Shown in pieces: positions 9,131 to 49,046 of a stretch of DNA of 64,000 nt (position 1 is the stretch's first letter; each line of letters begins with the position of its first letter). Location of the stretch: positions 6,168,488-6,232,487 of the forward strand of contig JAJEKV010000053.1 in the NCBI GenBank assembly GCA_021234155.1. The letters are read 5' to 3'. The position numbers and the translations under genes are program-made. Origin of the DNA: Isoetes taiwanensis (Eukaryota; Streptophyta; Lycopodiopsida; Isoetales; Isoetaceae). The notes beneath the pieces were generated by a model. That model was not told the DNA's origin, searched no databases, and saw only the letters and a program-made list of their open reading frames with translations.

Positions 9131-11100
9131 TTGTGCCTCGGGTGGTCTCATGGAATTGTCGAGGCTTCCCTTGGCGAAGAGGGGGGCAGTCTCAACTTCA
9201 GGTGGCGGCCGATATGGATCTCATCTTTCTCATGGAGACATGGGAGCATCTTTGAGCACGAGGGCTACGATCTGCTGGAGTTACCAATATTTCTCGGTCT
9301 TCAATGCATGCGGGGCCGGAGGGACATGGTGGGGTTGCTTGCTACCACTTGGACAACCTTGGCACATTCGGTTTACCCTCGGAGAAAACTGACGGACACA
9401 ACCGGTACTTGTGGGTTCGTGTGCATAATACCAGTGGCAACCCTCTTTTTCTGGCCGCCTGTTATTTCCCTCATGCAGAGAGCACCTTCTATCGCAGCCA
9501 CTCCGATGCGGATAGGATGGACCCTTATGTCGATCTATATGATGACAATACAGCAGCACAAGCAGCAGGCTTTAGACCCCGCCACTCAACGATTGACCAT
9601 ATCTTTACACTGCGGGCACTGATTGAAGACAGTCGGAACCATCGGCAGGACTTGTATTGCTGCTTTGTGGACTTCGCGAAGGCTTTTGATACGGTCCCCC
9701 GGGAAAAGCTATGGGCTAGACTGCGTCAACTGGGGCTGCCGCTGCCTGTGCAGAATGCCATATACAGGCTGTATGAGAGTTGTTTTGGCAGGATGCAGCC
9801 GACGGGCCAAGCATTCACCAGTAGTATCGGGGTCCGGCAGGGCTGCCCCCTCTCACCAACACTTTTTGGCCTCTACATTGATCAGTTAGAGCCCTGGCTT
9901 ACTGAGCATGGGGGGGATGGCATACAGCTTTTGCACCAGGTCATCCGCCAGCTCATCTATGCGGACGATGTTGACCTTCTGGCCCACACCCCAGAAGCTA
10001 TGCAGTCTCATCTGGATGCCCTAGACACATTTCGTCGGCCGTTCTGAGACATGCGGCGTAAATCTGGCCAAGACGGGGTGATTCTCATATCCTCTTCACG
10101 CCACCCCACGCCCCGCGACTCACATATCGGGGGGACAACTTGTGGAGGTCATGCCCACCTACAAGTACCTAGGGGTGGAGTTCCCCTCCTCGCCTGTTGG
10201 GAGGCGCCCATCCGCTGGGGGTGACAAAGAGGCTGGAAAGCGCTTTTATGCCATGCTCGAGAACAACAAATCACCAAAGTGAGCTCTATGATTGAGGCCA
10301 TCGGTCACATCTGTTTGCACCGGTCGAGCTGTCGCCCTTCAGACGGGTCGAGGTTTGGGGTCCGATCGTCTCTTTGGCGACCTAGAATGACTTGGAGCAG
10401 GTGCAGAAGGCATTTTTGGCACGGGCACTTGGGGTAAAACCTTCAGTCCCCTATCATATTCTGCTGCAGGAAACTGGATTCTTGCCGCTTCAGCGGGCAG
10501 CCCTTGATAGACGCATCGTCTATTTTCAGAAAGTGGTTAATATGGGTGATGCTCGACTCCCGGACCTGGCTTACGCTGTGGCAATGGGCCTGCAGCGGCT
10601 CAGGGCCTGTTGGAGGGGTAAGAGAGATCAGTGGTTCGCCAGATGGAACGTGCGGGGAGAGTGCGTGCGGTGGACCACAGAGGCCGATCGTGACAGCAGG
10701 GAGTACCGGACACTTGCTTCCTTGGCAAGCTCTGGGACCCCGGCGCTCTAGAGCAGGTCAAAACGGCCCATTACAAGGAGCACATCAACCCCGTGTTAGC
10801 CCGGGGCCCGCAGCTCTACCTGCATTCCTAGCTGCCTCTGAAAAAGCGCAGACTCATTGCCTCCATTCGCCGCGCGGTGCCCACCATCTTCGCGATCGAG
10901 GCGGGCGGGTGGATTGGGAGCCCCGCCGGGACAAGCTCTGTCGGTGCGTCCAAGCGGGTGCCATTGAGGATGAGTCTCACACTTTCCGAGTTGCCCAAAG
11001 ATTGATCCGATCCGGGCGGACACGCTCCCTTAGTACGGCCGGACTTGCCCCTACATTTGCTTATGAACACACCGTCAGTACGTGCTCTGGGGTCATACAT
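9131..11100 (+). pseudogene. Endonuclease/reverse transcriptase of LINE copy A, internally deleted
   Basis: The AP-type endonuclease starts with VVSWNCRG and LIFLMETW (about 9140-9250), then changes frame. The longest frame, 9304-10045, carries an endonuclease piece (NPLFLAACYFPHAES) joined directly to the RT: AGFRPRHSTIDHIFTLRALI, CCFVDFAKAFDTVPREKLW with the first catalytic Asp, GVRQGCPLSPTLFGLYID, and LIYADDVDLLAH with the catalytic Asp pair. The endonuclease catalytic DY/SDH region present in copy B is missing. Downstream frames 10392-10751 (EQVQKAFLARALGVKPS, LLQETGFLPLQRAALDRRI) correspond to copy B 50089-50577. The element could not retrotranspose on its own, although its RT catalytic residues are preserved. 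Confidence 0.75.
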
Positions 11101-11661: not shown

Positions 11662-12569
11662 CGAAAACCACCTTTGAAATCACTCCTATAATCAAATGCC
11701 TTTGGCAAGTTTTGATTGTCTACCACCTTGCTAGAATAGAATTCAATATCTATTTTGAATGTTCTCTAAGAAGGTAGAGTAGAATGGAATCTAATAGACA
11801 TTTTGAATGTTCTCAAAGACGGATGCTGGCTATGAAAACAACCATGACGAATCGCAAAATAACATCATTAGAAGAATCGAGTAGAGTTTTTTTCAAATTC
11901 AAAAAGATATAAGGTGGTCACGAGACAATATAAGATGCACATTGAATGAATCACAACTCCACACTTATCGAAGGACATTTGATAATCATAAATCAAGATA
12001 CTTTCTAGAGATAAAAAAAAAAAAAGAAAAAGAAAAAAACTATCAGAGCCAAGTTTTGATCTTAGAACCTATGGGTTATGGGTCCACCACGCTTCTGCTG
12101 CGCCATTCTGATCTTGATAAAAATCAATGTATTGAACATCTTTTAGTAAGTTCAATAGCAACAGAATACTGAGTTCTTGCCTCGCGCAAGCAAATGGTGC
12201 CATAATGTCTACTAACTCCATTGCCCCTCTCAACTTCATTTAGAGAATGCACATAGATGTAGAAAAATTTTCTTGCATTATGCTTCATATGTAAAATGAA
12301 TAAAAGCAATATTGCCACGAAAACTACCTCTAAAATCACTCCTATAATCAAATGCCTTTGGCAAGTTTTGATTGTCTACCATCTTGCTAGAATAGAATTC
12401 AATAGACATTTTGAATGTTCTATAAGAAGGTAGAGAAGAATGGAATCTAATGGACATTTTGAATGTTCTCAAAGGTGGATGATGGCTATGAAATCAACCA
12501 CGACGAATCGCAAAATAACATTATTAGAAGAATCCAATAGAGTTTTTTTCAAATTCAAAAAGATATAAG
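11662..12569 (+). repeat. 656-bp tandem duplication, first unit and left part of the second
   Basis: CGAAAACCACCTTTGAAATC at 11662 recurs as CGAAAACTACCTCTAAAATC at 12318, and the following ~250 bp match closely. Unit 1 is 11662-12317. Unit 2 begins at 12318 and is interrupted at TAAG (12566-12569) by the DNA transposon, resuming at 19885. Unit 1 has the same point uninterrupted at 11910-11913 (GATATAAGGTGG), so it serves as an internal empty site. Confidence 0.9.
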
Positions 12570-12598
12570 GGGTCTAAGTTAGATATTGGGGTACAAAA
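12570..12598 (+). repeat. Left terminal inverted repeat of the DNA transposon
   Basis: All 29 bases are complementary to 19856-19884. It is followed by a GC-rich stretch (AAGCGCGAGAAGCGG) that only loosely resembles the inner right end. Confidence 0.97.
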
Positions 12599-12866
12599 AA
12601 GCGCGAGAAGCGGAAGCGGAGAAAGCACGCTAAGCAGCGCCCGACGCACCTTTTCGATTTCCGCGCGCCTTTTCGGCGAACAATGATTTTGATTGTCAGA
12701 GGTGTAATTATTCGCGCCCATTTTTACTAATTGAATTGTACATGCCAATTTGCTCCCCGATTGCACTTCGATTCCTGCATTTTACAAATTGAAGCATCCT
12801 CTTCAAGGCGCTTGCTCCGACTTCTTTGTTTCTTGCTGCTTTTCTTTTTAAGTATCTTCTTTTCTC

Positions 12867-14776
12867 ATGGCTGGTGAAGGAATCATCCCACAGCAAAAGC
12901 TGAAATGGCTGGCGGAAAATGTCACTGCAGATGACTGGAACAGTGTTTGGTCTGAGCCAATGGTTTCAGGCAAAATCAAAATCTACTATGTTCGCCCTCA
13001 TTTGAAAGCGTAAATTAAATTGACGCTTTTGATCGATTTCTTGTATGGAGATGGAGGTATCCCGAATAATGAATTGAGGAAGCTAGTAGCATTATCATTT
13101 GCATGGGAAAACTGTAGTCGGGCAGAGCATAACCCTGAGGCTCATCGGGTTGATTGGGATGCTTACAAGAAACAGGTCAATGTTTGGTCCAGGAGAAAAA
13201 GGGATGACATTGATGTTAAAAAAAGAAGATGTTAAAATGATCAAAACTATAGTTCCTTCATGCCAAAGTACACCTCTAGCTTCCGGCAGATCAACACCTC
13301 AACTTGAATTTAAGGGGAAAGCAGGTCAGTCTTCTAAGTTTTCTGTTTCCAATTTAAGTTTCAACATTTCTTTGATTGAAGAGGAGGTTAGTAAGTTGGA
13401 AACAGATTTAGACAACTGTACAACTGATCTGGTAAAAATAATTAGTACCATTGAGGTAGATAAGAACTCTTTAGCAAGGGAAGAGAGGATGATTGAGCAT
13501 GGAAGGAACGAGATAGCAAGAATGGAGAATGAGTTGTCTGCTTTGAATGCCAAAGCAGACAAGAATGATGGAGACCTGAAGCAGATTGAAGAGTTAAAGC
13601 AAAAAATAAGTGGTGAAATATATTTTTGCTCTAAATTGGAGGCTTGCCTTCCAAAGGTTAGTGTTGAAGCATTACAGGAGAAGGAAAAGAAGGAAAGATC
13701 AAAAACTTCACTGGAATTCAGATTACAGGAAAGCAGGAAATACTTAGAAGCTGGTAGACAATTGATGGACTCAGATATATCAAAAATGTCTATCATAACT
13801 ATGAAAAGCAGGTTGCCTGGTTTCATGGAAGATGCATGTGCTGCATGTGGATTGGTCTTCAATCCAAAATATAAATTGAGTATGGCATTACCATGTGAAC
13901 ATGTCTATCACTTGGCATGCTGCATGCTTTTGTATGAAAAGAAGTCATGCTTCAGGTGTTTGAAGGAAGTTCCCAGGGAAGTTTTTGTGGAACTTGGTCT
14001 AGAGGTTGCAGGTGAAGAAGACTTGCAGATTCAGGCAAGTAGTGCATTTGAGGTAGGCACTAGTAGTGCATTTGCTTCACCTGATAAGTTTTCCAATCTT
14101 GTCACACTTGTGGCTTCACCTGTGGCTTCACCTGCTTTATTATTTAATAAAGCACCTGTGGCACCTGTGGCTTCACCTGCTTCTGAGTCACCAAAAAATG
14201 TTGTATCTACTGCATCAGCTCAAGTGTCACCAAGTCCAGTAAGGAAAGTTGTAGAAGCTTTGCAGAAGGTAAGACTTTGATATTTCTTATTTGTGTTTTA
14301 ACTAACTTAATCTCATTTAAATTGATTTGTGTTCTAAGCAGCACAGTTCTGTAATTCAGCTTAGTAAGGGGCCAGCAAAAAAAAGGATAAAACGTTCACG
14401 TGTTGTTGAGAGCAGTTCAGAAGAATATTATGAACAACCTGTACAAAAGGTTCCTGCAATTGGCATAAAGACCAGGCTGAGGAGTGCAACTGCAGGAGAA
14501 AGTTCTACTGCTGCACATGTAGATGTTCACGTAAGCAGTGATGAAGAACAAGCAAATGAAGATGCTGAAGATGCTGTTGAGAAAGGTAAGGGTAAGGGTG
14601 AAACAGCAGTTGAAATGGAGGTAGCAACAACAAAAGTCAAAAAGAAGATTGGGAGACCCTCAAAGAAGCTGCCACCTCCAGCACCAAAGCAAATAGGTGA
14701 TCAAGTTGATATTATTGTGAAAATGTTAAATGGTAGTTCAGGTTCTGTTTCTCAGTATATCAAGTCATTGAGTTAG
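12867..14776 (+). CDS. Transposon-borne coiled-coil / RING-H2 / AT-hook protein
   Basis: A RING-H2 finger usually marks an E3 ubiquitin ligase; here that role is inferred. The first ATG (12867, MAGEGIIPQQKLKWLAENV) is followed by one in-frame TAA at 13011, then the same frame goes on with LLIDFLYGDGGIPNNEL and VDWDAYKKQVNVWSRRKRDD. One base fewer in the A7 run at 13218-13224 would join it to the long frame ending at 14268. That frame carries a coiled coil (about 13360-13790) and a RING-H2 pattern: CAACG, LPCEHVYHLACC, CFRC. A V/A/S/P repeat region follows. A GAAG|GTAAG donor at 14269 and an acceptor ending 14341 remove 73 bp in phase. Exon 2 (14342-14776) is acidic and basic and holds an AT-hook-like core KKKIGRPSKKL. 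The likely role is nuclear, acting with the transposase. Without the stop and indel it would be about 610 residues. Confidence 0.7.
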
Positions 14777-14933
14777 TTTCAGAACATAACATATTGTGGT
14801 GTATGTGAAATACTGTTTTAATTGTTTTATGTTGTTTGAGAACATTGTTTGAATATTGTAATTCTGTTTTCTTTAATTAATGACTTCTTTTAATTCATGT
14901 TTAAGTCATGTTGATGTTTAAGTTTCTTTTTTT

Positions 14934-15848
14934 ATGAATGTTGCAGAGGATTTAGAAAAGAAAAAACTTGTCATCTTAGACATTAATGGAGTTTTGGTCA
15001 ACACCTTCCAAAAAAGAGCAAGAGTAAAGATTCCACCAGGGCTCAAGAAGTATTACACAGCAGGGAAAGTGGTTATTTGCAGACCTTTTTTACAAGAGTG
15101 GAGTTTTGAAAGATTTGAAGTTGGGATTTGGTCTAGCATGATGAAGCACAACATCATACAAATCCTTAACAGTATTCTGCCAGCACACTACATTGCTAAA
15201 TTCAAATTCATTTGGGGCCAGAATGAATGTGAGGTGCTGCCTTTCATGTTTCCAGGCAGTGCAACCAAACCAGTATTTATGAAGCCAATTGTCAAAGTTT
15301 ACACAGCTTTTAATGATGTACAGGATGTTGTGCTTGTGGATGACTCTTTGTACAAGACTTTCTTGTCCCCACCAGACACATGCTTAATAGTTGAGAGCTT
15401 TGACAATGAGGAAAATGATAAGGTATTCAACTATATAAAAGCATGTTTGCACACTTGGCTTCATTCAAAGAATCCTCAAAAGTGGTTGCACCAGCAGCTT
15501 CATGTTGATGTGGTCAAGGAAGTAGACATCAACATACTCAAGCTTACTGTTGACCACTTGAAAGAACTTGCAAGATGGAAAGTAGCAATTGAGGGAAGCA
15601 TGCAATTGGTGAAAGATATTGTTGGTGTTGCAGCTGATATTGTTGTAAATGAACAGGATGAACATGCAAGAGAAGAAACAACACAGATTCTCCATACTGA
15701 TCAGACCAACATTGAAGAGCCTGATCAGACCAACATTGAAGATATTGATCAGACCAACATTGAAGATACCGATAAACAGGAGGAAACTGCAAGAGAAGAA
15801 ATAACACAAGATCAGACCCGCATTGAAGATACTGACTTTGAGATGTAA
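14934..15848 (+). CDS. FCP1/NIF-like HAD-family protein carried by the transposon
   Basis: FCP1-type HAD phosphatases use a DxDx(T/V) motif, a Ser/Thr motif, a Lys and a DD pair; they dephosphorylate for example RNA polymerase II CTD. In this 304-residue frame, motif I is LDINGVLV (D16 kept, second acid replaced by N18), motif II IWSS (65-68), a conserved-looking Lys at 117 (FMKPI), and motif IV VLVDDSLYK (D136-D137). The loss of the second Asp, the usual acid/base, suggests reduced or no phosphatase activity, so a binding role is possible. Residues about 240-300 are acidic repeats of DQTNIE(D/E). A good splice acceptor (TTTTTTTATGAATGTTGCAG) ends at 14946, so the first codons may instead be an exon joined to sequence upstream. 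It lies convergent with the transposase gene and clearly inside the element. Confidence 0.7.
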   Translation: MNVAEDLEKKKLVILDINGVLVNTFQKRARVKIPPGLKKYYTAGKVVICRPFLQEWSFERFEVGIWSSMMKHNIIQILNSILPAHYIAKFKFIWGQNECEVLPFMFPGSATKPVFMKPIVKVYTAFNDVQDVVLVDDSLYKTFLSPPDTCLIVESFDNEENDKVFNYIKACLHTWLHSKNPQKWLHQQLHVDVVKEVDINILKLTVDHLKELARWKVAIEGSMQLVKDIVGVAADIVVNEQDEHAREETTQILHTDQTNIEEPDQTNIEDIDQTNIEDTDKQEETAREEITQDQTRIEDTDFEM

Positions 15849-16334
15849 ATTAAGAACTTCATGTAACTTAAGATGAAACTTAAGATATAACAGATGTTTC
15901 TTTTTGAAGACTGGATATGAGTACATAGTTGTACACTTTTGTAACAGAACGGATATTAATGTAAATTCAAGGTTTCAGGCATTTACCTACACTTGTGTAG
16001 ATCATCATTTGTAAACTTTGTTCATTTGTAAACTTGCAATCTGTTTTCCATGTCCATCAAGTCTGTTTTCCAGAAGTTCATCAAGTCTGTAATAGTTAAC
16101 TGATAACAGAAAGCATGTAAGCAGACAAAGCATAAGTATGAAAAGCAGACCTAGCAGCTTTTCTTTTAAAGCTGTGAGGACAAGGAACATTTGTGCAGCA
16201 AAGAATTTGTTAGTTTTCATTGATAACGAATTATAAAGAGTATAAGAAAGAATATGGCAGGAAAGAGCCAGTGTACATCTAAAAACTCAATTGCTGCTTC
16301 TTCGAAGCAAAAGCAGAAAAAATGGGCAGCAAAA
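15849..16334. other. Convergent intergenic region of the DNA transposon
   Basis: This lies between the plus-strand HAD gene and the minus-strand transposase stop. It is AT-rich with several short TCAAGTCTG/TTTGTAAACTT repeats near 16005-16090. It probably holds both 3' UTRs. No gene is seen. Confidence 0.45.
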
Positions 16335-19300
16335 TTAGCACTCTACTGGAAGGGATGCCATAACTTTTTGGCATGTCTCTTCATTCATCTTGAAACTATT
16401 GTTATCAAGATTCTCCATATCAAACTTCACCTGTCTGACAAGGTGGCTATACAAACTAGCAACTGGCTTGTCCAATAGCAACTCAAATTGGAGTGCATCT
16501 GTTTGCTTGTAATAATGGCCAGAAACTATAACTTCTCCTACACCAAATGCAGTACCCCAAGCATCTTCATATGTATCTAACAATGTGTGTTTAGTCTCTG
16601 TACACCTAAGAACGTAAAAGTCAACTCCCTCATCATCTTCTGGATGTGCATTTACAACAAAGTTATCTCCAACTTCTAGAAGAGAACTAAGGTAATTTAC
16701 TTCTTCATCTTCTTCTTCTTCCCCCTGACTAATTGCTGTGGATGTTTCTCCAGCAACAGAATTCATCTTTGGTTTCAGTTCTGCTGTGAGCCATGCTCCC
16801 AAATGTGCTTTGTTCGTGCAATCATCCCTTTTACCATGAAAGCAATAGGAACAATAGCAAGAGAGGCACCTATAAGCAACTTTTGCAGGGTTCTTTTTGT
16901 CACATGGTCTGATGCAATGAAGTTTAGAGCTCCCACATAGTGTTTTCCACTCCTTCCTTTCAGATTTGTCTACACTTTGGGGATCAATATGCCAAAAGAA
17001 CCTGCAATATAAAACAGATTCATGCAACTTCAAATCTAAGAAAAATCTAAGAAAAAACAAGAATTTACCTTCTTATATGAGGGTCTGGTGGATTGTTCAT
17101 CATGTACCAGTTCATGAAATCGACAATGTCTTTGGCACTTCCAATTTCGGGACTCATACTTCAATTGCTCTCTTGCCAAAACCCTTTTCAATATTGCACC
17201 TTGTCCATCATGTTCTCCTTTGCCATGAGAATTGGCAAAGAAATTCCACTCATACTCAATTCCTTCACTACACACATAGTTCCTTCCTAAATACCAGAAA
17301 GGCCTTGCTCCTTTAAACTGGGATGTGCAACCATCACTCCAAAAAATATGTTTCTTGTACTCAATGTTCTGTGCTCTAAGCCAGTCAGCATGTACTTTCA
17401 AGCAATGATGTACAAACTTCGGGTGCTATGCTCCTGTCATCTGAAATATAAAATTGCACTTCCTTTATAATTCTCCTCCTCGATTAGTCTTTGATGGTCT
17501 CGACTTGTCTTCTTCTTTCTTTTCAGCTTATCCCGCCTCTGCTTCTCTTTGCTCGCCTCTTTAACTTCCATCTCCTCTATCTCGGCTTTGGGTTGCATGT
17601 CTATATGTGATATGAACCGGGGCCTGGTCCGTGCCCGATTGGCAAGATTGTGCCTCCCTCTGAATTTTAAAACTGTAATTTTCAGCAAAGTCAATTACAG
17701 AGACAATTGCATCTTCAGGAAAGGTATCCAAACACGTCCTGAATTGCTTTGCCTGCCAGTGTGCCACATAATTGTGTGTGACAAATTGTACCATTGTCTT
17801 GGAGGCATGCTTCATGAACTGGGGCAGACTCTCGTTCTTGTATGCAAGTCTTGTTACTTTTGCTGGTTTCCTCCCTCCCATTTTTTTCTTGGTAGTCTCC
17901 TTCATGCATCCAACTTCTTGCTGATTTCAGACCATGAACATTTCTGTCAGTTTGCAATTTGTTTAAAAAGCTTGTCACACGAGCACAATTTAATTAAGTC
18001 AAACAGAATACCTTTTCAAACTGTTTCCACTCCACCTTGTAATCAGTTTCCATCTTCTCCTTAGGACAAAAAGCAAACCTGTTTATAACATCACAATTAA
18101 AGTTACTGAGCAGTAATATCTTTAAACATCATAACATTGAAGAGACAAACTTAAGAGTACCTTTTCAGCCCACAATCTTTGCATGCCAACTGCAGACATT
18201 GATGTTTGTGCCATTCTTCATCTTCTTCTTTAGAGCATACCATTTGCCTCCAAAAATCACTAGTGGATTTATAAACATGGTTCTTGGCACTACAAAAGTT
18301 ACCATCACCACAAACAGCACAATTACAATTGCATTCTTTGTGCACCCCATTTGGATCTGTTCTGATTTTGTTGAGTGCTTGCATCACATACTCAAAGTGC
18401 ATGTGATATTGGCAGCAACAGGTCTCTCTTTCTTTTAAACGCCTCACAAAAGATGGCTTCAGCAATTCAAATGTGCGCTGTGAAATCTTCATTTCATTGA
18501 ATTCCTTTTTGAAGGCCATGTAAAATTGCAACTATAAACAAAGCAGAAATACAGAGTTCCAAAAAAAATTAAAAGCAGCAATATAGTAAAGCATAACAAG
18601 CGGTAAAACATATAAAGCATAATAATTACCTGAGAAATTTCAAACAGTTGTATTGGATGATCAATTTTTTCACCATCTTTTGTAACAAACTTTCTCACAT
18701 GCTTCCTGTATGGTGAGACTCTTGTGTTTTCTGTCCATAACTTGTAAACAGAATTCTTAACCTCGTCAGTTATTGCATCTGATCTCTTTTTCCTTGAAAA
18801 CATTGTAGATACCATTTGCAATGTGGACTTTCTTGCTTGCATTATATATGTCTTCCTTAGTTTCTTTTGCTGATTGAGTGTCTCTTGAACATTTCTAATT
18901 ACATTCTTCATGATCTTGCTTTGATCATGATCAACAAAATCCACCTCCAGTGGCAATTTCTTCTTCACTCTCTTCACAAATCTGTGCACCACCAGTGCCT
19001 TATCCCCTTCTTTCAAAGTCTTTGTGATATTATTGAAATAATCGTCCAAACTCTTGGACAATTCTTGAAGCCTTCTCGCACTCAAGCCGCTGTCAACTTG
19101 AGGCTGGATATTTTCTTTCTCCCTCTCCCTAGGGTAAAAGCATGTTAGGGTGTCCCTTAAAAAGTATTATTTAGTGACCAAAAAGGTACCTAAAAAGGTA
19201 GCCAGGACTAGGTACTGGGTACCTGTATAATATCTCAATATAAGGTATGTTTTAGAACTTTTTATATATATATTGATCTTCGATAGCATTATCTTTATCC

Positions 19301-19558
19301 TAACTTTGAATATTACCATGTCCTTGACTTTTATTTTGGATTTTTGTATTAGTTTTAATGAAAAGAAAAATGAGAAAGTACCCAGTTCTGAAGTACCTAG
19401 TGTATGTACTTTTGCAGGTTCCAAAAGTGGTACACCCTAACATGCTTTCACCCCCTATCTCTTTTCCTCTGTCTAGATTGCCTTCTTCTCTCGGCTTGAA
19501 TTTCCCGGAAAATTTGAAGTTGCTTTTCTTCATCTAAATCTGATGCTGATTGATCCAT
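16335..19558 (-). CDS. DDE-like transposase, five exons, interrupted by a MITE
   Basis: The start ATG is at 19558 (MDQSASDLDEEKQLQIFRE). Exons read 5' to 3' on the minus strand: 19558-18630 (with the MITE), 18531-18161, 18078-18012, 17920-17069, 17001-16335, with GT-AG borders in phase. Exon 2 is Cys-rich (ECNCNCAVCGDGNFCSAKNH), a likely zinc-binding DNA-recognition part. Exon 4 carries VSVIDFAENYSF, FYISDD, HIFWSDGCTSQFK and NFFANSHGKGEHDGQGA, which I read as the conserved acidic blocks of an RNase-H-fold transposase; DFAENY...SDGC..QF...SHGKG..DG also occurs in uncharacterised animal proteins. Exon 5 has a second Cys/His cluster (CLSCYCSYCFHGKRDDC). Within exon 4 the frame changes at GGGG 17619-17622, near 17462-17466, at GGG 17422-17424 and at GGG 17149-17151; each is repaired by removing one base. 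Length would be about 850 residues. Confidence 0.75.
19132..19453. mobile_element. 322-bp MITE inserted in transposase exon 1
   Basis: The 22-bp inverted ends, 19132-19153 and 19432-19453, differ at one base (minus strand GGGTGAAAGCATGTTAGGG). They are flanked by a 4-bp direct repeat, CCTA, at 19128-19131 and 19454-19457 (TAGG on the minus strand). Removing the MITE and one duplication joins RQSRQRKRDR to EREKENIQPQVDSG in the same frame. It has no coding capacity. The GGGT ends and TARG target resemble those of the surrounding element, so it may be mobilised by the same or a related transposase. Confidence 0.9.
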
Positions 19559-19855
19559 TTAGAATCGTGTTGTACAGAGAATTGTGTTGTACAGAGAAAC
19601 CGTGCTGCACAAAGAAAATTTTGTTCAGGGGTACAACACCAGATCATGCTTCCCGCCATAGTCAAATCCTATTCACTCTCCACGCCATCTCACAACAACC
19701 CCGCCAAATTGATTCTGTACCGAATTTGATTTTGCGGGTAGCCATGTCATCGATCCGGAAGCAATTTGCTAAAAACGGATTATCGCGTTCCCGCTCTCCA
19801 AGCACCTCCAAGCACAGCAGACCAAGCACGAAAAGCAGCGCGTCCGGACGGGTGC

Positions 19856-19884
19856 TTTTGTACCCCAATATCTAACTTAGACCC
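19856..19884 (-). repeat. Right terminal inverted repeat of the DNA transposon
   Basis: It ends CAATATCTAACTTAGACCC, then TAAG (19885-19888), the target duplication. Confidence 0.97.
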
Positions 19885-20340
19885 TAAGGTGGTCACGAGA
19901 CAATATAGGATGCACATTGAATGAATCACAACCCCGCACTCATCGGAGAGCATTTGATAACCATAAATCAAGACATTTTTCTAGAATTAAAAAAAAAAAA
20001 AAGGAAAAGAAAAAAACTATCAGAGCCAAGTTTCAACCTTGGGACCTGTGGATTATGAGCCCACCACGTTCTGCTTCGCCATTTTGATCTGATAACAATC
20101 AATGTATGGAACATCTTTTAGTATGTTTAATAGCAACAGAATACTAAGTTCTTGCCTCGCGCAAGCCAATGGTGCCCTAATGTCTACCAACTCCATTGCC
20201 GCTCTCAACTTCATTTAGAGAATGCACATAGATGTAGAAAAACTTTCTTGCATTATGCTTCATATGTAAAACGAATAAAAACAATATTGCCATGAAAACT
20301 ACCTTTAAAATCATTCCTATAATCAACAATAGTTCATAAT
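19885..20340 (+). repeat. 656-bp tandem duplication, right part of second unit
   Basis: From TAAGGTGGTCACGAGAC to CCTATAATCA this copies 11910-12350 with scattered substitutions. With 12318-12569 it makes up the second unit, separated only by the inserted transposon. Confidence 0.9.
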
Positions 20341-25985: not shown

Positions 25986-25990
25986 GGAGC

Positions 25991-26554
25991 TGTTAGTCCT
26001 GTGCCTCCTGGTACAGGACTATTCATGCATACGACGGACCAGGTCAAGCTCAAGGATCCGCAGTCAACTACGGGTCAGTCATCCAAGGCCCCGCAGAAGA
26101 CCAAGCGGCAGCCCTATCAAAGCCCGCGCCAGACAAGTGATGGGCCATCACCGTCGTCGGGCGTCCGTGATTCTAGGCACTTCAAGAGGCACCGCCAACA
26201 TTTCAGAATCAGGCCTCCTTCCGTGAGTCGGCACCGAGATCGGTCAGAGTGTCTATATTGGGCCAAAGGCCATTGTACTATATATATGAGTAGAGCTAGC
26301 ATATGAGGGCTAGATGAGTTTTGAGTCTTGTCTCTCTTCAGTCTTCTCTCGATTGCGAGAGCTCATGTATGTTCATCATTGATATCAAAGAAGCATATCA
26401 TTTTCCTCTCATTGTTCTTTTCTGTTCCGTTTTCTTCTTCTTGTTCTTTTCTTGCAAATCCCGCGTGACATAGTCCCCCCGGATTCTCCTGTTAGATCCA
26501 AGGGTCCTCACAGAGGGCTGTCTTGCAGGAGTTCCCGAACCCAGACCCCAAACA
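25991..26554 (+). repeat. 5' LTR
   Basis: It is 564 bp, TG...CA. A TATA box (TATATATAT) lies at 26279-26287, upstream of the expected transcription start. Just downstream of the LTR, CGCGCCGGGTGCGGGATTCGA (positions 26561-26581) resembles the complement of a tRNA T-arm and acceptor end and may be the primer-binding site, though the expected TGG is missing. Confidence 0.93.
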
Positions 26555-26603
26555 CGCATGCGCGCCGGGTGCGGGATTCGATTTTTTCCCTTCTTCTGTC
26601 GCC

Positions 26604-28350
26604 ATGTCTGTCTGAAACTTCACGCCAGAAGAACTTCTTTCCCAGACGGCGTCTCGATTGGAGCGCCATCATCGCCGGGAAGTTGTTCGTGACATGTATG
26701 GATCTGCTTATGACATTGAGGGAGGCCACATTCGGTCTAGGGCTCAGTCGGCGCCACCCACCCCTCGTGTCATGTCTCGTCCAAATTCTCCACCTCAAGC
26801 GTGCAAACATTGCTCACAGCCTCAGTCTCCTCATCACTATCAGGAGCCCTATCCGGCTCCACCTGCTCAACCTTACTTTCATACCCCAGAACATGCCTTC
26901 ATCCATCACTCTTCTGGCCATACGCCTCTGCCTTCACAACCATCATCTCCTAGGGGTACACAGGGATATCCACATGTCTCTTTTGCTCCTCCCCAGGATT
27001 TTTCCTTCCCTACCTTTCCCACCGCTCTTCCTGTTTACAATCTTACAGACCTCAAACCCAATGATCAGGCACCTCCAAGTACCCCCACCTCACCCACCCC
27101 TTCAGAGAGGTCTTTCCAAAGACCATACCCCTCCAACTCCACCTCAATATCCTCACTATCATGTTCCGGTCCAGCCCAGCACTTTTACTTCTACCTTTCA
27201 GACCCTTAAGCTGACTTATCCCACCTTTGGCAACACGAAAGGCAAACCTTTAGACCAAAGTGCTCAGGCCCACATGGAAGAATTTGAGGCTCTGGCTGTC
27301 CTGAATGGTCATGCGCAACCTCAACTGAAATTCCACATCTTTTCCACCACATTGCGTGGCTCCCCTCATCAATGGCTCATGTCCAACAAAAGCCATCGGA
27401 AACAAGATTGGTCCAAAATGAAAACTTTTCTTTCTCACTATGGGACCACGGATGATGATCAACTTCATCTCAAGCAACTCAATGACCTTTCAACAAGAGT
27501 CCACTGAGTCGCCGGGGATTTTGCGGACCGTCTTCACATTCCTTTCGGCAAACTCAAGGAGTACCCCACACGAGCCGGATCTTGGTCCGGTTTCTCCAAG
27601 GACTTCCTCCAGCCTATCGGACTCATGATCAATACTGCATACCAAGACTTTGGAGCAGGCTATCGATCTTGTCAATCACTCAATCAATGTTTCCTCTCGC
27701 GGGCGTGGCTCTTCAGAGCTCCCTTTCATTCCACCCGTCATGGTTCCCCGTGATCTTTGTTCAACCTCAACACGCCAATCCGCAGCGCAGTCAGATCTGG
27801 TGCCATATTTGCAAATATCAAGGCCACTTGGCGAATGAGTGCAACTCCACCAATGGCCCGCCTCATTGTAAACGCTGCAACATGTGTAATCATGCCACGG
27901 AAGAATGCACTCGCACTCATCCTACACCTTTCCGCAACAAGATGGTTTATCAAGTGCAAACAACACCTCAAAGACCAATCGCCATATCGCCAGACCACCA
28001 CTACAGCGCAACCCAATCAACTCTATCAGCCCTTGCGGGAGCAACAACGGGGACCCAACACACGTTCTCCTTTTGATCCTTGGCTTCGGTGTTATCACTG
28101 TCAAGAATGGGGTCATACCACCACGGCGTGTCCTCAACTTCCCCAAGTTCAGGTGCAGCTTCCTGGCACTAATCAGACCACATCAGCCCGCCTCACGGCT
28201 TACCAACTCTGGATTGCTAATGGCAAACAAGGCCCGCGTCCAGTTCTTCGGAAGCCACCTCGCGGCGCCAAGCAATCACGCTATCAACCCGCTCCCGCCA
28301 ATCAACCTCGGATGGATCAAAAAGCACGGGGAAGAAATTTTTCGGGCTCT
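26604..28350 (+). pseudogene. gag with three CCHC zinc knuckles
   Basis: Gag forms the particle and binds RNA. ATG 26604 is followed by an in-frame TGA at 26613, then the same frame goes on with RLERHHRREVVRDMYGSAYD and a P/S/Q-rich region. The frame moves near 27110 into the capsid-like part: PTFGNTKGKPLDQSAQAHME, HIFSTTLRGSPHQWLMSNK and KTFLSHYGTTDDDQ, with a stop at 27505-27507. The same frame then continues (VAGDFADRLHIPFGKLKEYP). Farther on are three CX2CX4HX4C knuckles: CHICKYQGHLANEC and CKRCNMCNHATEEC (about 27800-27910), and CYHCQEWGHTTTAC (about 28095-28135). Three knuckles are unusual. Two stops and several frame changes break it. Confidence 0.8.
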
Positions 28351-28374
28351 TAATCCTCCGGTCCGGCCATCAAA

Positions 28375-29560
28375 TTGGGTTGGTTTGGTTTCACGCCGCA
28401 CTGTATGCCACGTCCCTTAACCATTATTCCTAATGGCACGCAACCTGCCTTTGCAGTCGACGCCATTCCTCATGCAGAAGACAAAAAGGTCCATTTTGCA
28501 CCGGACTTGGAGAAACTCATGCCGAATGTCATGCCTAAAGTTCGCCAAAGCATTTTGAACCTCATGCACGCCGGGCTTGAAGGCGCGACGTTGGCTAATG
28601 TCCATGCCACCACGAGCTCAACAACGACAAGACGCACCTTCCACGTCTCAACCTCCACGCTCTCGGATATATCCCAATATCGCCTGCGGAAGTTGACCTA
28701 CTCAAAGAATTCTTTGCTTCCTTACCACGCACTCCTGCACTGTGGATCCAAAGCCGATCCTTTTTCTCATGTGCCTCTCTGGAATTCCAAGAGGAGCTAG
28801 CCAAAATCAAAATTCCTTTTAAGCTTGGCTACAATTTTGAAACTCGTCTCATCTCGCTCTCAAGGACCCGGTTACCACTCCCGGACCGTTTTGGTTGGGG
28901 CTGTTGCTACCTCTACTCCCACGGTCCATGCCACGGTGGGCAATCAACAAGTCAATCATGTTCAAATTGACGGAGGTAGCGCTGTCAATCTCATCACGGA
29001 TAAACTCCGCAAACAAATGGGCATCAAACAACTCTATTGCCCCATATGACATCAAATTGGCCAATGGCCATATCACGAGACCTCAAGGCGTTACGCCTCT
29101 TCTTCACATCAACATAAGTGATCTCAGATTCCCCTTGGAATTTGGTGTTTGGAAAGCTGGAGAAGATCCAGGTGATTATGAAATGTTGGTCGGCAGACCT
29201 TTTCTCCGCCGGGCCAAGAGCATTCATTCTTTGGGCTACACGGATGGGTTAGTCATCAGCGATGGTCACCTCAATGCCACCATGGACTTGGAAACCGGCA
29301 AAATCATTTCCGCCGACACTGCTGAACCCCTCTCTCTCCGAATAGGCACTCGAGGGCGCGAATATTTATCAAGTTCAGGCTCCACCTACGAGTCTGCCTC
29401 TGTCATCCTACCCCGAGTATGCTGATCCTTGGGGAGAAATGACTCTTGATCAAGACCAGGCTGTGGCTGCTTTGCTTGACCCTTACCTGGCTCCTTGCAA
29501 TCGAATCCAACGTGTTGATCACTTTTCGTGACGCCGAACCTCCCCGGCTTTTGTTGTTGA
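28375..29560 (+). pseudogene. Aspartic protease region of the LTR element
   Basis: The frame 28825-29049 has HVQIDGGSAVNLITDKLR, aligned with the D-S/T-G active site of retropepsins, but the motif is DGGS rather than DTGA or DSGS. It is followed in another frame (28895-29425) by LANGHITRPQGVTPLLHIN and EMLVGRPFLRRAKSI, the usual C-terminal part of plant Ty3 proteases (G-R-x-F/W-L). The upstream frame 28375-28800 is the spacer between gag and protease. It is broken by frame changes. Confidence 0.65.
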
Positions 29561-29645
29561 TGTGCACGCCGTCATGAAGCAACCTCTCGCTTGAGGAAAC
29601 TCAAGAACCTCTCTTTTTACCACGCAGAGCGCCACGCATCCTGTT

Positions 29646-32566
29646 ATGCTTCAACCTCCTGCTCATATTGTCCAGGACATGGAAGTTATCCCCCATATTC
29701 AGACTCCTGACGTAGAGATTGTGGACGTAGGCAACAATCAGCCTGTCCGGATTGCTGCCAATCTTCCCACACCCTATCGTAACAGGGCCGTCGGCGCTTT
29801 TCAAAAGTTCAAACACATTTTCGCCGGAGCTACGAGAGATCTTTGGGGATCAACAAAACCTTGGGGAACTCACCATTCCTACCAAGTCCGATGCACGCCC
29901 GGTCTAGCAAGCAACGATGCACGGCTCAACCCTAATTACCGTGATCGCGTCAAGGCGGAAATAGACAAACTCCTTGCTGCAGGTTTGATCTATGAGGTCA
30001 AACATTCTGAATGGGTGAGCCCCATCGTCATTGCACTCAAACACAATGGTAAGATCCGCGTTTGCGTGGACTACCAAAACTCAATCAAAGCCCACGGGCG
30101 TGATCATTTTCCACTTCCCTTCACGGACTGAGGGTTCGGAAGAGGTTCTTTGGACATGAGATGTACTCCTTCATGGATGGTTTTTCTGGCTACAATCAGA
30201 TCTCAATCAAAGAATCGGATCAACTCAAGACTATCTTCACCACCCCCGGGGCACTTTTTGCCTACAAGGTGGTTCCTTTTGGATTATCAAACTCTCCATC
30301 CACGTTTCAACGTATCATGCTCTCAGTTTTTCATGATTTTATGAAGGAAAATCCCTTCTTGCAAATTTTTCAAGATGACTTTCTTGCCTACAGTTCCATG
30401 GCTGACCATTTGGATAAATTGGAACTCGTCTTTCAGAAATGTGATGAGTCCGGCATTAGTCTCAATCCTGAGAAATGCACCTTTTGCGTCACTTCAGGTG
30501 TTCTGTTGGGACATGTGGTCAGCAAAGCAGGTATCACCACGGATCCTGCCAAAATCAGCTGTGTGCTCAAGGCTCAAGCACCAGCCAATATCAAGGAAAC
30601 ACGCTCTTTCTTGGGTAAGGTCAATTATTACTCCACCTTCATTCCTGAACTCGCAGCCATTGCAGATCCCATTCATAAACTCACGGGTGATGAATCCACC
30701 AGGCTTGGAATTCCCAGCGGATCTCGCCCAACAGATTGAAGCTTTTTGCTTACTCAGGCCCCGGTTCTTGTTCCTCCTCAATGGGACAAGCCCTTTCATG
30801 TCCATGTCGATGTCTCGACCTTTGCTATTGAAGCTGTTCTTTCTCAAGCATATGATGCGCACACTGACAAACCAAACCGCTACGCCAGCCGAAAACTCAA
30901 TTCTGCTGAACGCAACTACTCTGCCACAGAGCGAGAAGCCTTGGGTTTAATTTTCTGCGTCCAACGCTTCCGTCACTATCTTTTGGGCAGTCAAATCAAA
31001 TTCTTTGTTGACCACCAGGCACTTCTTTACTTGATCAACAAATCCACGCCCACGGGCCGCATTGCTCGTTGGGTCCTACTTCTGCAAGAATTTGCACCTT
31101 TTGAAATTGTTCACAAGGCCGGCAAATCTCATGTTGTCCCGGATTATCTTTCACGCATCCACACAGATGATCCCTCTACTGGAATCTTAGACGCCTTTCC
31201 TGATGCTCAACTCTTTCTGGTCACGGCAACACCACATTGGTTTCATGACTTTCAGCAGTATCTCCTCACAGGCGCTCTTCCACCAGAGGACGCCACGCTC
31301 TCTCCAGCCAAGCGACAATCCCGTCGACATCAATTTCTCCGCGAGGTCCGTGACTACACCATGGTTGCAGGCCATCTTTACAAAAAGGGTAAGGATACCA
31401 TTCTTCGACGCTGTGTTCTCCCTCATGAGGTCCCAGATATTGTCCGAGAAGCCCATGAAGGGCTCGGTGGTGGTCATTTTCATGGTGACACTACGGCACG
31501 CAAAATCCTTCTTGCTGGTTATTTTTGGCCCACGCTCTTCAAAGACGCTCACGCCCACGCCCGCACGTGTGATGCTTGCCAGCGTGTGGGACGGCCCACG
31601 GCCCGTGACGCTCTTCCCTTGACGCCGGTCGCCACGCCACTTCCCTTCAGCAAATGGGGAATGGATTTTGTGGGACCCATCGATCCTCCTGCGCGGCACA
31701 CCCGTGCCCGCTACATTCTGGTTCTCACTGACTACGCTACCAAATGGGCGGAAGCTTGCGCACTTCCAGACAACACTGCGGCCAGCACAGCCAAGGTCCT
31801 CTATCAACAAATCATCACGCGATTCGGCTGCCCCACGGAGCTGGTCAGTGATCGTGGTGTCCATTTTATCAATCATACCATCAAGGAGCTGACGGATTAT
31901 CTCCTGATACATCATCACAAGAGCACACCTTACTATCCTCAAGGGAATGGTTTGGCAGAAAGCACAAACAAAACTCTGGTCACAATTCTCAAGAAAATTT
32001 GTGATGCTTTCGTGACCGATTGGCAAAACAAACTTCCTATCGTTCTTTGGGCTTACAATACTTGTTTCAAAATAGCTCTGTGTCACACCCTTTCAAATTG
32101 GTTTATGGTCAAGAAGCTCTCATGCCGTTTGAATACATACTTCCAACACTGTTTTTCAATCAAGCACGCCCATAATCCGCCTGCTGCACTCAAAGAAAGG
32201 GTTTATCAATTGGAACAGTTGGATGAACTTAGAAGAGATGCTTATATTCGTGTTCTTCATGGACAACAGTTGCAAAAATCCTTACATGACAAACGGCTGA
32301 AGACAAAAACATTCAACGAAGGAGATTTGGTTCTTCTTTATGATTCTCGGTACAAAACTTTTCCGGGTAAACTTAAGTTTCGTTGGCTTGGCCCTTATCA
32401 AATTGTTCAAGTGGTTCGACCCAGCGTTTTTCAACTGGCTGAGTTAGATGGCACTCCATTACCTACACTGGTTAATGGCTTTCGCCTCAAAACATTTCAT
32501 ACAACAGAAAGTGCACATCCACAAACAGATGCTGTTCCAGACACGCACACAACAAATAGTGACTAA
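29646..32566 (+). pseudogene. pol: reverse transcriptase, RNase H, integrase
   Basis: RT begins in 29646-30131 (PGLASNDARLNPNYRDRVKA, KAEIDKLLAAGLIYEVKHSE, KIRVCVDYQNSI). It goes on in 30161-30739 with FMDGFSGYNQI (first catalytic Asp), VVPFGLSNSPSTFQRIM and FQDDFLAYS, where the usual YVDD or YIDD is FQDD with both Asp kept. RNase H and integrase are one intact 606-codon frame (30746-32566): HVDVSTFAIEAVLS, SATEREALGLIF and FFVDHQALLY (RNase H D-E-D), then an H2C2 zinc region ending CDACQR, and the integrase DDE residues in WGMDFVGP, LVSDRGVHF and GLAESTNK. The C-terminus has FRWLGPYQIVQV and no chromodomain. Breaks lie near 30131 and at 30739 (TGA). Confidence 0.9.
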
Positions 32567-32673
32567 ACCAGCGGCATATTTCTATTATAGGTGGAATTTT
32601 TTACAAAATGTGGGCGCAGCCCAGCTATTTCCGCTATGGGCACTGCCCTATATACAAAAACGGGCTCAGAGCC

Positions 32674-33180
32674 CTATCTACTAAGTCCTAAGAAGAAAAA
32701 CCCTCTACTCCGGGTTTGGAGCAGAGGTGATGCGCAGGATGTGGTAGAGGTTCTCGCCAGATCCCAGCCAAGCAGAACCACCTCCATCCCGTTGGTCTTC
32801 GGGTCGGGATGTTCAGCCATCCCGGCACACCAGCCGTCCATTCTCACGCCACGATTGTGGCAGCGCCAGAGGTCCAGACAATTCATCTTGCAGGTAATCC
32901 ACTCCTGACAGTTCGTGGGCATAGTGCAGTCCTCGTTCAAACCAGCAGCAGCCATGCTGAGCGCCATCGGATGCCTTCGTTTACTCCCGGTTCGTCTTAT
33001 ATAGCCAACTGAGGAACTCCTTGTCGACATGGACCAATCACATAAATTGCCAACGTGTTTGCAATGCAAGGCTGTTTCTAAACTGAGAATCTTTTCTCCC
33101 GCCGCATATCTAGCCATGGTACCTTCTGACACATTCCTTTTAATGATATCCCACTTCGAGTTGACAGCATTAAATGCCAT
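32674..33180 (-). CDS. Antisense Cys-rich ORF between pol and the third ORF
   Basis: This 168-codon frame on the strand opposite to pol has nine Cys and several Trp, clustered as EDCTMPTNCQEWITCKMNC, LWRCHNRG and DGWCAGMAEHP. It has no stop and no frame break, unlike most sense frames here. Antisense genes at this position are known in some plant Ty3 elements (for example Grande). Sequence similarity to those was not tested. It may also be chance. Confidence 0.35.
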   Translation of the reverse strand: MAFNAVNSKWDIIKRNVSEGTMARYAAGEKILSLETALHCKHVGNLCDWSMSTRSSSVGYIRRTGSKRRHPMALSMAAAGLNEDCTMPTNCQEWITCKMNCLDLWRCHNRGVRMDGWCAGMAEHPDPKTNGMEVVLLGWDLARTSTTSCASPLLQTRSRGFFFLGLSR

Positions 33181-33500
33181 TCCTTCTTTTCACGCCCGTC
33201 GAACATTAATGTGTGTCCTTTGGCCACCTGTCACATCCCATCATTCTCTCACGCCTCATCTCCACCGTTCATTCCTTCTCCCTTTGTCGTTTGGGGACTT
33301 AGCCAAATTTTTGCCTCTCAATCACCTCCTTGGCATCTTTCGACACCTGGCACCATCAACGGTTGCAGCTTCGCCCTTATCATGACCCTTCGCCCACCTT
33401 TGCGCGACCTAAACCTTTTCGTCTCTCTGCGCTTTCGTCCTCCGTTCTTTGCTTTCGTCCTCCGCCTTGGAATCACTGTTCTTTTCTGCCAATCTTTGCC

Positions 33501-36433
33501 ATGGCTGCACCAAAATTTTCTACACTTCAAGCTACTGCTCCCAGGGAACTGGCTCTTTTAGAGTCTGCCTCTTTCTTGACGCCCACTTTCCGTGAAGCCC
33601 TTGTTGGCCCGAATCGTGCAGTCGCAAAACGCGAGAAACTCTACGAATTCTCTCACATGGAACTTCCGGCTCCAAATCCTGACCAGTTGAAGCAGTTCAT
33701 CGCTAACATCGTCAACAGCCCGCATGGATACACCACAATGGTCGATGGCACCACCATTTCGCTGACTCAACACCTAATTTCCGAGGTATTCCATATTCCT
33801 TTGCAAACCCCTTGTTTATCTTGGTCTGCCATACAGGATCTTGATGTCACTAAGTTTGGTGCACCTGCTTATCATGCAAACGTGCATCGCCTCACAAATA
33901 TTGACAAGCCCCATGAAATTTTTGTTAAGTTTCTGTGGCGCAAGTACCTTGGGTATTCTATCAAGAACACCCATATCAATAAACCTTTCTATAATCTCGT
34001 AGTCACTGCTACTCGCTCAACCCACCACATTGATTGGCCCCAATTGCTGTTCTACCATCTTCTCCAAGAAGTAGACCGTCTTTGGGCTGCCACTTCTCCC
34101 TCTGAAACTTCTGTGGGAGGCCATCTTCAAGCCCTCATCTGTCATTACTTTCCTCCCACAAACTCTCATTCTCAAAAATCCACTCAGCAGTCCCTTCCTA
34201 AGACTCATCAAGTTGGCACTTCACGCCCTTCTTCTTCTGGTCATGTCAACCTTCAACACACGCATGTTACTGTCTCCTCCTCCTCTACAGAAACCAAGCA
34301 CTCTAGTCCTCATCATGTGTCCCAAACGTCACAAACAAGGCAACAGCCGGCTCCACCACCACAGCACCCTCGTCATTTTTGTTGTATCGAAGATCGCCAG
34401 GATGCTCAAAGCCTTTGTTCTAAAGTTACAAGAATCCCAAGAAGCTCTTATGAATGGGGTTCACACGGCCCTGACGGCCTCAGATGTGGTTGACCGTAAC
34501 CTTCAAGCTGCAACTGCACAAGTTCAAACTTTGGAAGCCCAACTTCAAGAAAAGCATGGGGCTCTCTTACAGGCCCGCATAGATCTCAAAAGTGCACAGG
34601 ATCAGACCAGCCTACTTGCAGATCAACAGGCTCAGCTTCAATCCGAACTTCAGGCCTTATTGGAGCAACACAAGTCCAAAGACACCCTCCTTAGTGACAA
34701 GGAGAAAGATATTGCTAAACTCAACGCTTTGTACTCCGAGCTTTGTGAAAATTACAGTACTCAAGTTCAACACCTTACAGAGCGTGACGCTCAGATTGCC
34801 TCTTTGACGGCTCAGCTCTCCACGCAGACTTCTCAGCTAACATCCCTCCAAGATCAGCTTACGGAGGTTCAGAAACAGAAACTTCTTGATGACGCGGAGA
34901 TTGCCGTGCTTCGACTCAATGCCCCTGGGCAAGCCTCCTCACCGGGTTAACACTTTCGTAAACGGGTCCGTGACCGGAACACGCCTTCGTTAGAAAAGGA
35001 CCACAGGATCCGTGACCTCGAACAACAGCTAGTGCAAACTATTCAGTCTGCTGATGAGGCTCAGACAAGACTTGAAGGCTACATTACCATTGCTCTCAAC
35101 CTGCTTGTTGACTACCCTATTCCTTCCAGTTACCTGGATTATGTGGTTGCCCGCCGCCACCTCTTTCTTCTCGAAGTGGCATACTACCGATGGTCCCGTT
35201 GATGTTCCCCCAAGACGCAGGATTTTTTTCGGATCTGGCTCCGAACTCTCCGTTGAAGACAAAGGTTTATTTTGTGCCCTTTTAGTCTTTGATCTCATTC
35301 ACTGTGACGATCCGGATATGATCACCTTCAGAGTTGTTCAGCCAATGGCATACATTTTTCATGATTTCTATCTGGCAGATACACAGGACAAATTTCGAGA
35401 TGGGCCACATCAGAACTTTCAGGGTGACCCCATTTGGATAACAACCCCTATCTGTCTAATCATGACCAGACACATGCTCTTCATCAAGAGTACATGCCGA
35501 ACTTGCTCATCATTTGCCCTCTCGCAAGCTGAAGCGCTGCAACAAATAAGGAAGTATCTGGGACATCCCGAGGATCTTCCCTTTGCACAAGTTTACATGT
35601 AGCACCTGGCCGGTTACAATCAACTACGTGCTCTTCTGGATAGCAAGACAGTTCCCACGGGTTGGGATAGCCCTCCTGTTTACTCTCATTTCGCCGCTTC
35701 GAAAGTGGGATCGTTGGTGCAAGGCTCTAGATCCCCGCCCTTGTCGGTGAATTGGGGGGGCGGGCTCAAGCAGCCCACGCCCACGGCCTGGCTCCTCTCG
35801 GTATGCTTCTTCTCGGGTGCCCCTCCACGCCCCAGGTTTCTTACTTCTGATTGGCGTCTTCCCTTCTGGACCAAGGTCATGGATGGCCACGCGGGATCCA
35901 CTCCGCCTCAAATCTCGACGGATCTCCGGTGGGATCCCCGCTTCGTCAGACGATCCGCTTGGGAGGATAATGCCACCTTAGACACTACTGAAACCTGGAT
36001 CTATATTGCCAATGCGCGTGGTTGGCAACGACCCGAGGATGCCATTTATGGCCTCGACACCTTCTTGCGACATCTCGCCACCTCTCGACCCCGGTCCACC
36101 GTCGGCGGGTTTACGTCTTTGCTCTCAAAGAGCCTCCTGGTCAGCTCCTCAAATTGGCAGCGTCCCATCTTTTACTGCAATCCGAATGCCAGCGTCAGTG
36201 CTTTCGGTCTCCAGACTTGCCTCCTCATGGAGTGCCAGTTTGTTTCTTCTGAAGCCCATGCGGCCCTTGAAGACATGGTGCGCTCTCATTTTCTCATTGA
36301 CGCCGATCCTGCCCTTGGGCTCAACACTCCTCCTGCTCTTCAAAAGCGCCGGGATCTCATACTTGATTACCATAATGGTGCCCGTCCTCACTCCCGTGAG
36401 GATCACTTTCAGACTGAGGGCTTCCGCCCTTAA
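33501..36433 (+). pseudogene. Third ORF between pol and the 3' LTR (envelope position), coiled-coil
   Basis: ATG 33501 opens a frame MAAPKFSTLQATAPRELALL with an N-terminal region (VDGTTISLTQHLISEVFHIP) of the type seen in plant transposon proteins. The frame moves near the T5 run at 34376-34380 into a long Gln/Leu/Ala coiled coil (34400-34940: LQAATAQVQTLEAQLQEKH and DAQIASLTAQLSTQTSQL). An in-frame TAA at 34948 is followed by more of the same frame to about 35200. The C-terminal part spans 35170-35602 and 35603-36433 (RKYLGHPEDLPF, WIYIANARGWQRPEDAIYG, FRP at the end) with one TAG between. Total about 970 residues. It has no signal peptide or transmembrane segment, so it does not look like a membrane envelope protein. 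Function is unknown. Confidence 0.6.
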
Positions 36434-36471
36434 GAGACACTTCCTCCTTTTCTTCACCCGGAGTGTTGTTT

Positions 36472-36483
36472 GGTGGGGGGGAG
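36472..36483 (+). promoter_or_regulatory. Polypurine tract of the LTR element
   Basis: GGTGGGGGGGAG directly abuts the 3' LTR, as expected for the plus-strand primer. Confidence 0.9.
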
Positions 36484-37054
36484 TGTTAGTCCTGTGCCTC
36501 CTGGTACAGGACTATTCATGCATATGACGGACCAGGTCAAGCTCAAGGATCCGCAGTCAACCACGGGTCAGTCATCCAAGGCCCCGCAGAAGACCAAGCA
36601 GCAGCCTATCAAGAGGCGCCGCTCAGACAAGTGATGGGCCGTCACCGCCCGGCCGGCGTCAAGCGTGATTCTAGGCACTTCAAGAGGCACCGCCAACATT
36701 CTGCAGAATCAGGCCTCCTTCCGTGAGTCGGCACGAGAGATCGGTCGAGTGTCTATATTGGGCCAAAGGCCATTGTACTATATATATTTGTAGAGCTAGC
36801 ATATGAGGGCTAGATGAGTTTTGAGTCTTGTCTCTCTTCAGTCTTCTCTCGATTGCGAGAGCTCATGTATGTTCATCATTGATATCAAAGAAGCATATCA
36901 TTTTCCTCTCATTGTTCTTTTCTGTTCCGTTTTCTTCTTCTTGTTCTTTTCTTGCAAATCCCGCGTGACATAGTCCCCCCGGATTCTCCTGTTAAATCCA
37001 AGGGTCCTCACAGAGGGCTGTCTTGCAGGAGTTCCCGAACCCAGACCCCAAACA
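36484..37054 (+). repeat. 3' LTR
   Basis: It is 571 bp and nearly colinear with the 5' LTR. It is preceded by the polypurine tract. Confidence 0.95.

Positions 37055-48036: not shown

Positions 48037-48068
<32 letters not shown>

Positions 48069-49016: not shown

Positions 49017-49046
<30 letters not shown>

Follow-up and report, generated by a model that had tools for sequence, protein, structure and literature searches.

A provisionally Sola-like DNA transposon of Isoetes taiwanensis with resident RING-H2 and NIF-like genes

RESULTS AND DISCUSSION

We analyzed a 64,000-nucleotide stretch of the Isoetes taiwanensis genome (the window; assembly GCA_021234155.1, contig JAJEKV010000053.1, positions 6,168,488 to 6,232,487 of the forward strand) and focused on a 7315-bp unit that it contains. 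The unit is very probably a cut-and-paste DNA transposon, provisionally Sola-like, in which genes for a RING-H2 protein and an NLI-interacting-factor (NIF)-like protein reside beside the transposase gene. What is new here is this three-gene architecture, of interest chiefly because it is conserved. The window copy itself is a coding-defective, end-intact member of the transposon group, and among its three genes only that for the NIF-like protein retains an open frame.

Boundaries, empty site, and copies in the genome

The following features delimit the element (positions are those of the window).

12566..12569, no strand: left target site duplication (TSD), TAAG, read in the sequence
12570..19884, no strand: whole transposon copy, 7315 bp, defined by its terminal inverted repeats (TIRs), TSD, empty site, and the same ends in other copies
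12570..12598, plus strand: left TIR, 29 bp, 29/29 complementary to the right arm
19856..19884, minus strand: right TIR, 29 bp, 29/29
19885..19888, no strand: right TSD, TAAG, read in the sequence
11910..11913, no strand: empty target site, single TAAG, in an upstream tandem copy of the flank

An earlier, sequence-only reading had proposed a complete transposon with perfect 29-bp ends, a direct TAAG duplication, and an empty site, and each of these structural traits was recovered. The termini are GGG...CCC. A search with 25 bases of the end and a tolerance of up to 3 mismatches matched only the two arms within the window and nothing in 100 shuffles. Both flanks are part of a tandemly repeated stretch, the left resembling 11662-11913 (92.9%) and the right 11910-12351 (90.3%). 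Joined without the element, they align to 11662-12313 at 91% over 654 columns with TAAG present once, and the TAAG at 11910-11913 in the neighboring tandem copy is an unoccupied target. "Complete" holds for structure but not for coding, given a 322-bp insertion, the absence of ∼117 bp, broken frames, and a broken RING gene.

The I. taiwanensis assembly (1,658,258,908 bases in 1110 records) was searched for further copies, and all copy counts are lower bounds. The exact 29-bp end occurred at 417 places, compared with 0 for a reversed control, and the genome holds >100 copies of the element. The left 131 bp had 40 listed matches at 95-100% (from 278 first-look candidates) and the right 131 bp had 40 at 98-100% (from 300). 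Paired ends gave copy sizes of ∼7.1-7.6, 3.3-4.3, 2.2, and 0.26-0.27 kb, plus others. The shared ends confirm the proposed boundaries. The earlier suggestion of a recent insertion agrees with the perfect ends but less well with the 88-98.5% identity of other copies to the window copy across aligned stretches or with the defective coding of the latter. That the 7.3-kb unit is a chance inverted pair around ordinary host genes is refuted by the 417 exact ends, the 4-bp TSDs, and the empty site; we found no support for it and consider it next to impossible.

Target site choice was evaluated in 36 copies, comprising 22 facing-end pairs (from 100 listed of the 417 end places, excluding pairs 12.8 and 22.7 kb apart), the window copy, and 13 copies found earlier. 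A script requiring the exact end detected a perfect 4-bp duplication in 26/36, and two more copies were perfect at 4 bp once an end mismatch was allowed. Three copies with a degenerate end that lie outside the 36 (L019, L020, and L025) showed no perfect duplication, bringing the overall count to 28/39 copies with both ends mapped. Flanks of the 36 pairs matched in 3 cases at 2 bp and in none at 3 bp or at 5 to 8 bp, and wrongly paired flanks used as a control matched at 4 bp in 12/1260 cases. The 26 duplications included 22 different tetramers, with an AT content of 76% versus 61% in the flanks. Because the duplications vary in this way, with a lean toward AT, TAAG is ruled out as a specific target; the earlier argument that TAAG is not TTAA therefore stands against TTAA-specific families but fails as a diagnostic.

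On record C156, two miniature inverted-repeat transposable element (MITE)-size copies at 76389-76660 and 198470-198742 (C156a and C156b) have flanks that are nearly reverse complements of each other, so that C156b is not independent. The two form an inverted duplication, which may be an assembly artifact.

A transposase with three conserved aspartates

The spliced transposase described earlier, with its DFAENY, SDGC..QF, and SHGKG..DG blocks, was found on the minus strand.

16335..19558, minus strand: transposase gene, broken in the window copy; frames, GT-AG junctions, and start read in the sequence
19558-18630, 18531-18161, 18078-18012, 17920-17069, and 17001-16335, minus strand: predicted transposase exons, from frames and GT-AG junctions
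17675..17692, minus strand: DFAENY block with the first conserved Asp, the same residue in all of 27 aligned sequences
17327..17338, minus strand: SDGC block, second conserved Asp, invariant in the same 27
17204..17227, minus strand: HGKGEHDG block, third conserved Asp, likewise invariant

In the window copy, the 322-bp insertion interrupts exon 1, ∼117 bp of other copies is absent at 18803-18805 (97-120 bp depending on the alignment), and the catalytic exon contains frame changes and 4 stops that were read through. We read the absent segment as a putative helix-turn-helix-like stretch. Another copy, L028, keeps a 284-aa catalytic exon open. With 137 scored out of 8891 first-look candidates, the catalytic exon had 147 matches in the host assembly at E ≤ 1e-5.

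Relatives of the transposase were found in streptophytes, one snail, and one moth; Ceratodon, Calypogeia, Klebsormidium, and Taxus are among the genera with homologues. Alignment of the three acidic blocks, which the earlier reading had recommended, showed D75, D195, and D237 to be invariant across 27 aligned sequences. Structure models of the transposase have an RNase-H topology, consistent with a DDD group that has a predicted RNase-H-like core. A Pfam scan of 40 relatives revealed no family that two or more of them matched (best E, 0.0073), and a sequence search of PDB gave no match up to E 1. Foldseek against a viral library gave no match at E ≤ 0.001. Candidate relatives in prokaryotes and viral contigs amounted to 81 and 31 pattern stretches, respectively, none of which was confirmed, and therefore no bacterial link emerged at that sensitivity.

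One relative from Klebsormidium nitens (P0091) is annotated as a single protein with N-terminal leucine-rich repeats, a joining that reflects either a fusion or a gene-model error. At L055:4285-4309, near the far end of a lineage 56-57% identical, we observed a TIR-like stretch that starts with GGGG and has 7 mismatches of 25; it may be the end of that lineage's element.

RING-H2 and NIF-like genes

The two extra genes noted previously were both found, on the plus strand.

12867..14776, plus strand: accessory gene 1, coiled-coil and RING-H2, broken in the window copy; ORFs (open reading frames) and homologues in divergent lineages
14269-14341, plus strand: predicted intron of accessory gene 1
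13837..13960, plus strand: RING-H2-like C3H2C3 pattern (CxxC..CxHxxHxxC..CxxC), read in the sequence, with the same pattern in locus L038
14934..15848, plus strand: accessory gene 2, NIF-like, a 304-aa ORF with the motif LDINGVLV (D-x-N); PF03031, E 2.9e-12

One stop and one frame change break the RING gene in the window copy, and the frame is continuous in other copies, e.g., L025. Part of its product appears, by our reading, to be coiled-coil-like. The NIF homologue of locus L037 carries the motif LDLNGVLV (PF03031, E 3.5e-17), and the NIF protein had 140 matches in the host assembly. A candidate splice from the RING gene to the NIF gene (donor after 14696, acceptor before 14947) is in frame by our reading, but the NIF gene has its own ATG at 14934; joining of the two into one product is possible. 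In a database search requiring shared 5-residue words, the sole match to the NIF protein was an Oxalis protein (P0084; PF03031; motif LDINGLLA), which is 30% identical to the query across 60% of its length. P0084 shares the PF03031 domain, the LDINGL motif, and D-x-N with accessory gene 2, which differs in sitting within a many-copy transposon.

Co-residence and selection

Both accessory genes converge on the transposase gene (plus versus minus strand). Among the 50 best transposase exons, 33 were followed within 8 kb downstream by NIF in opposite orientation, 17 had none, and 0 showed another arrangement; direct reading revealed NIF in 5 of those 17 loci (L036, L037, L048, L051, and L052). 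In eight divergent accessory regions (L048-L055), with transposases 51-82% identical to the query, RING was present in 8/8 and NIF in 7/8. Three further loci comprised two with NIF (L036 and L037, the latter sequence stopping before the expected RING position) and one with the RING gene only (L038). All RING and NIF matches in the divergent loci were convergent to the transposase. We conclude that the RING-H2/coiled-coil and NIF-like genes are long-standing residents of this group in the Isoetes genome.

The ratio of nonsynonymous to synonymous substitution (dN/dS) was calculated for six NIF ORFs, giving 15 pairs, 8 of them saturated at synonymous sites. The window/L049 pair had a dN/dS of 0.21 (223 codons) and the L037/L055 pair 0.19 (251 codons), and 5 further unsaturated pairs (25-94 codons) had values of 0.08-0.34. 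Judged by these ratios, the comparison shows NIF to be under purifying selection between lineages, and because of that selection the gene most likely serves the element.

Superfamily placement and competing explanations

In excerpts of published descriptions, Sola elements have a DDD transposase, a 4-bp TSD, a length of mostly 2-9 kb, and TIRs of 11-1124 bp (PMC10741241); they are known from the moss Physcomitrella (PMC10741241, PMC9033089), are uncommon in flowering plants (PMC10741241), and, as Sola2 elements of social amoebae, have AT-rich 4-bp TSDs (PMC3627910). The element resembles Sola1/Sola2 of those excerpts in its DDD transposase, 4-bp TSD, 7315-bp length, 29-bp TIR, and moss occurrence; it differs in its accessory genes, as the same excerpts mention no RING-H2 or NIF-like genes for Sola. 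Based on this published description rather than on protein comparison, true membership in Sola is more likely than not, and the superfamily is probably one already known. The earlier view of a plant DDE/D transposon from a poorly described group was thereby supported, while its "unclear superfamily" narrows to Sola-like by the DDD residues, non-specific 4-bp TSD, TIR, size, and moss occurrence. Dictyostelid Sola2 proteins, which could bridge to Sola, were not named among 104 profile hits, most of which lacked an organism name, and neither "Sola" nor "DNA transposon" appears in the main text of two Isoetes genome papers.

Other superfamilies agreed less well, again as described in excerpts. Ginger1/Ginger2 share an integrase-type transposase and a TSD of 4-6 bp, but their ends are 5'-TG...CA-3' with TIRs of 40-270 bp (PMC10741241), which does not fit the GGG...CCC ends and 29-bp TIR found here. 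Kolobok and piggyBac also have a 4-bp TSD, and Kolobok termini are 5'-RR (PMC9587614), comparable to GG here; both are TTAA-specific (PMC9587614), a target contradicted by the varied TSDs. The varied 4-bp duplications likewise contradict Tc1/mariner (2-bp TA duplication), and Mutator (MULE; 7-12-bp TSD) was rejected based on the 36 pairs without a match of 5 to 8 bp.

An unnamed superfamily apart from Sola, defined by a DFAENY-SDG-HGKGxxDG transposase, would account for the 40 relatives that share no Pfam family, for the lack of a PDB sequence match, and for the broad distribution and deep divergence of the relatives. We consider it unlikely, given that DDD, 4-bp TSD, TIR length, size, and moss occurrence match the Sola description as excerpted (PMC10741241) and that so widespread a group would hardly be absent from Repbase. 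A different challenge concerns the accessory genes, which might be passively captured passengers with no function for the element. Plant transposons commonly carry pieces of host genes, Oxalis has a related NIF protein with D-x-N (P0084), and neither gene was found in every divergent locus. Passive capture is nonetheless improbable in view of the NIF dN/dS of 0.08-0.34 in the 7/15 unsaturated pairs (including both long pairs), the single convergent arrangement in 33/50 loci with none other within 8 kb, and the RING match in 8/8 regions despite transposase identities of only 51-82%.

Several observations weigh against a Sola-like transposon with functional resident genes. Transposition is deduced from sequence traits, and a perfect TSD is absent in 11/39 mapped copies. 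The Sola placement is drawn from described features. The third Asp falls outside the columns conserved at ≥90% in a 69-row alignment (A3), many rows of which are fragments. In Foldseek against PDB, nothing matched at E ≤ 0.001 and the top rows were PIWI/Argonaute proteins, not transposases; when the domain model was used, integrases were level with Argonaute and Mos1. The transposase and RING genes are broken in the window copy, many genomic NIF copies contain stops, and Pfam RING matches are weak (best E, 0.017 and 0.048, below the cutoff). Since no NIF match came up in L038 and L054 and no RING match in L036, neither accessory gene was seen in every lineage or copy. Active phosphatases of the NIF fold have a second Asp where accessory gene 2 has Asn, and its D-x-N motif makes phosphatase activity doubtful.

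For a cut-and-paste, provisionally Sola-like element, the transposase would bind the ends via N-terminal helix-turn-helix-like (by our reading) and Cys/His-rich parts, cut both ends, and link them to the target strands at positions 4 bp apart. The NIF and RING proteins might, for example, alter transcription, silencing, or repair in the host by way of ubiquitin and RNA polymerase II C-terminal-domain (Pol II-CTD)-type pathways. More tentatively, and with less than even probability, the group could be a streptophyte clade with deep roots, made up of DDD transposons with 4-bp targets that carry a conserved helper module. The module would pair a ubiquitin-ligase-like RING-H2 protein with a NIF-like pseudo-phosphatase of the D-x-N type (possibly one spliced product), and the transposons would need it against host silencing or for steering repair or transcription at their copies.

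The open-access literature searched (titles and abstract starts, among the matches listed) contained no transposon with a NIF-like gene and no report on this family in Isoetes. If our interpretation is correct, the family is a well-bounded, multicopy plant representative of a transposase group that has received little study, and it includes full-size copies, derivatives with internal deletions, and MITEs. It would also be a clear example of a transposase beside which two regulators of host type have been retained across large divergence. The role of accessory genes in DNA transposons would become testable in a setting other than Mutator and CACTA, and annotation of a transposase group without a Pfam family in our scan would benefit from the DFAENY/SDG/HGKGxxDG signature.

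A nested MITE and other repeats in the window

The insertion in transposase exon 1 is itself a transposable element.

19132..19453, no strand: MITE of 322 bp within exon 1 of the transposase gene, with CCTA duplicated at 19128-19131 and 19454-19457

It was absent from 10/10 other retrieved copies with alignable sequence to the left and right of the site. Among 40 matches listed in the host assembly (from 1973 candidates), 39 were further copies at 98-99%, 38 of them end to end, and the family looks like a very young burst. The MITE has GGGT...ACCC ends, with a perfect 4-bp duplication in 9/10 copies checked. Because this end type and duplication length are common to the MITE and its host element, a related transposase may move it.

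The window also contains a long terminal repeat (LTR) retrotransposon at 25986-37054, Gypsy-type by our reading, with LTRs (25986-26554 and 36480-37054) 95.3% identical and a pol ORF at 30746-32566. A cluster of ∼1-kb units, direct and inverted and mostly 94-99% identical, occupies 41186-49029. Other repeats comprise a diverged inverted pair (9565-10637 and 50341-51390; 66.8% identical) and a direct repeat of ∼455 bp (62410-62862 and 63546-64000; 91.9% identical).
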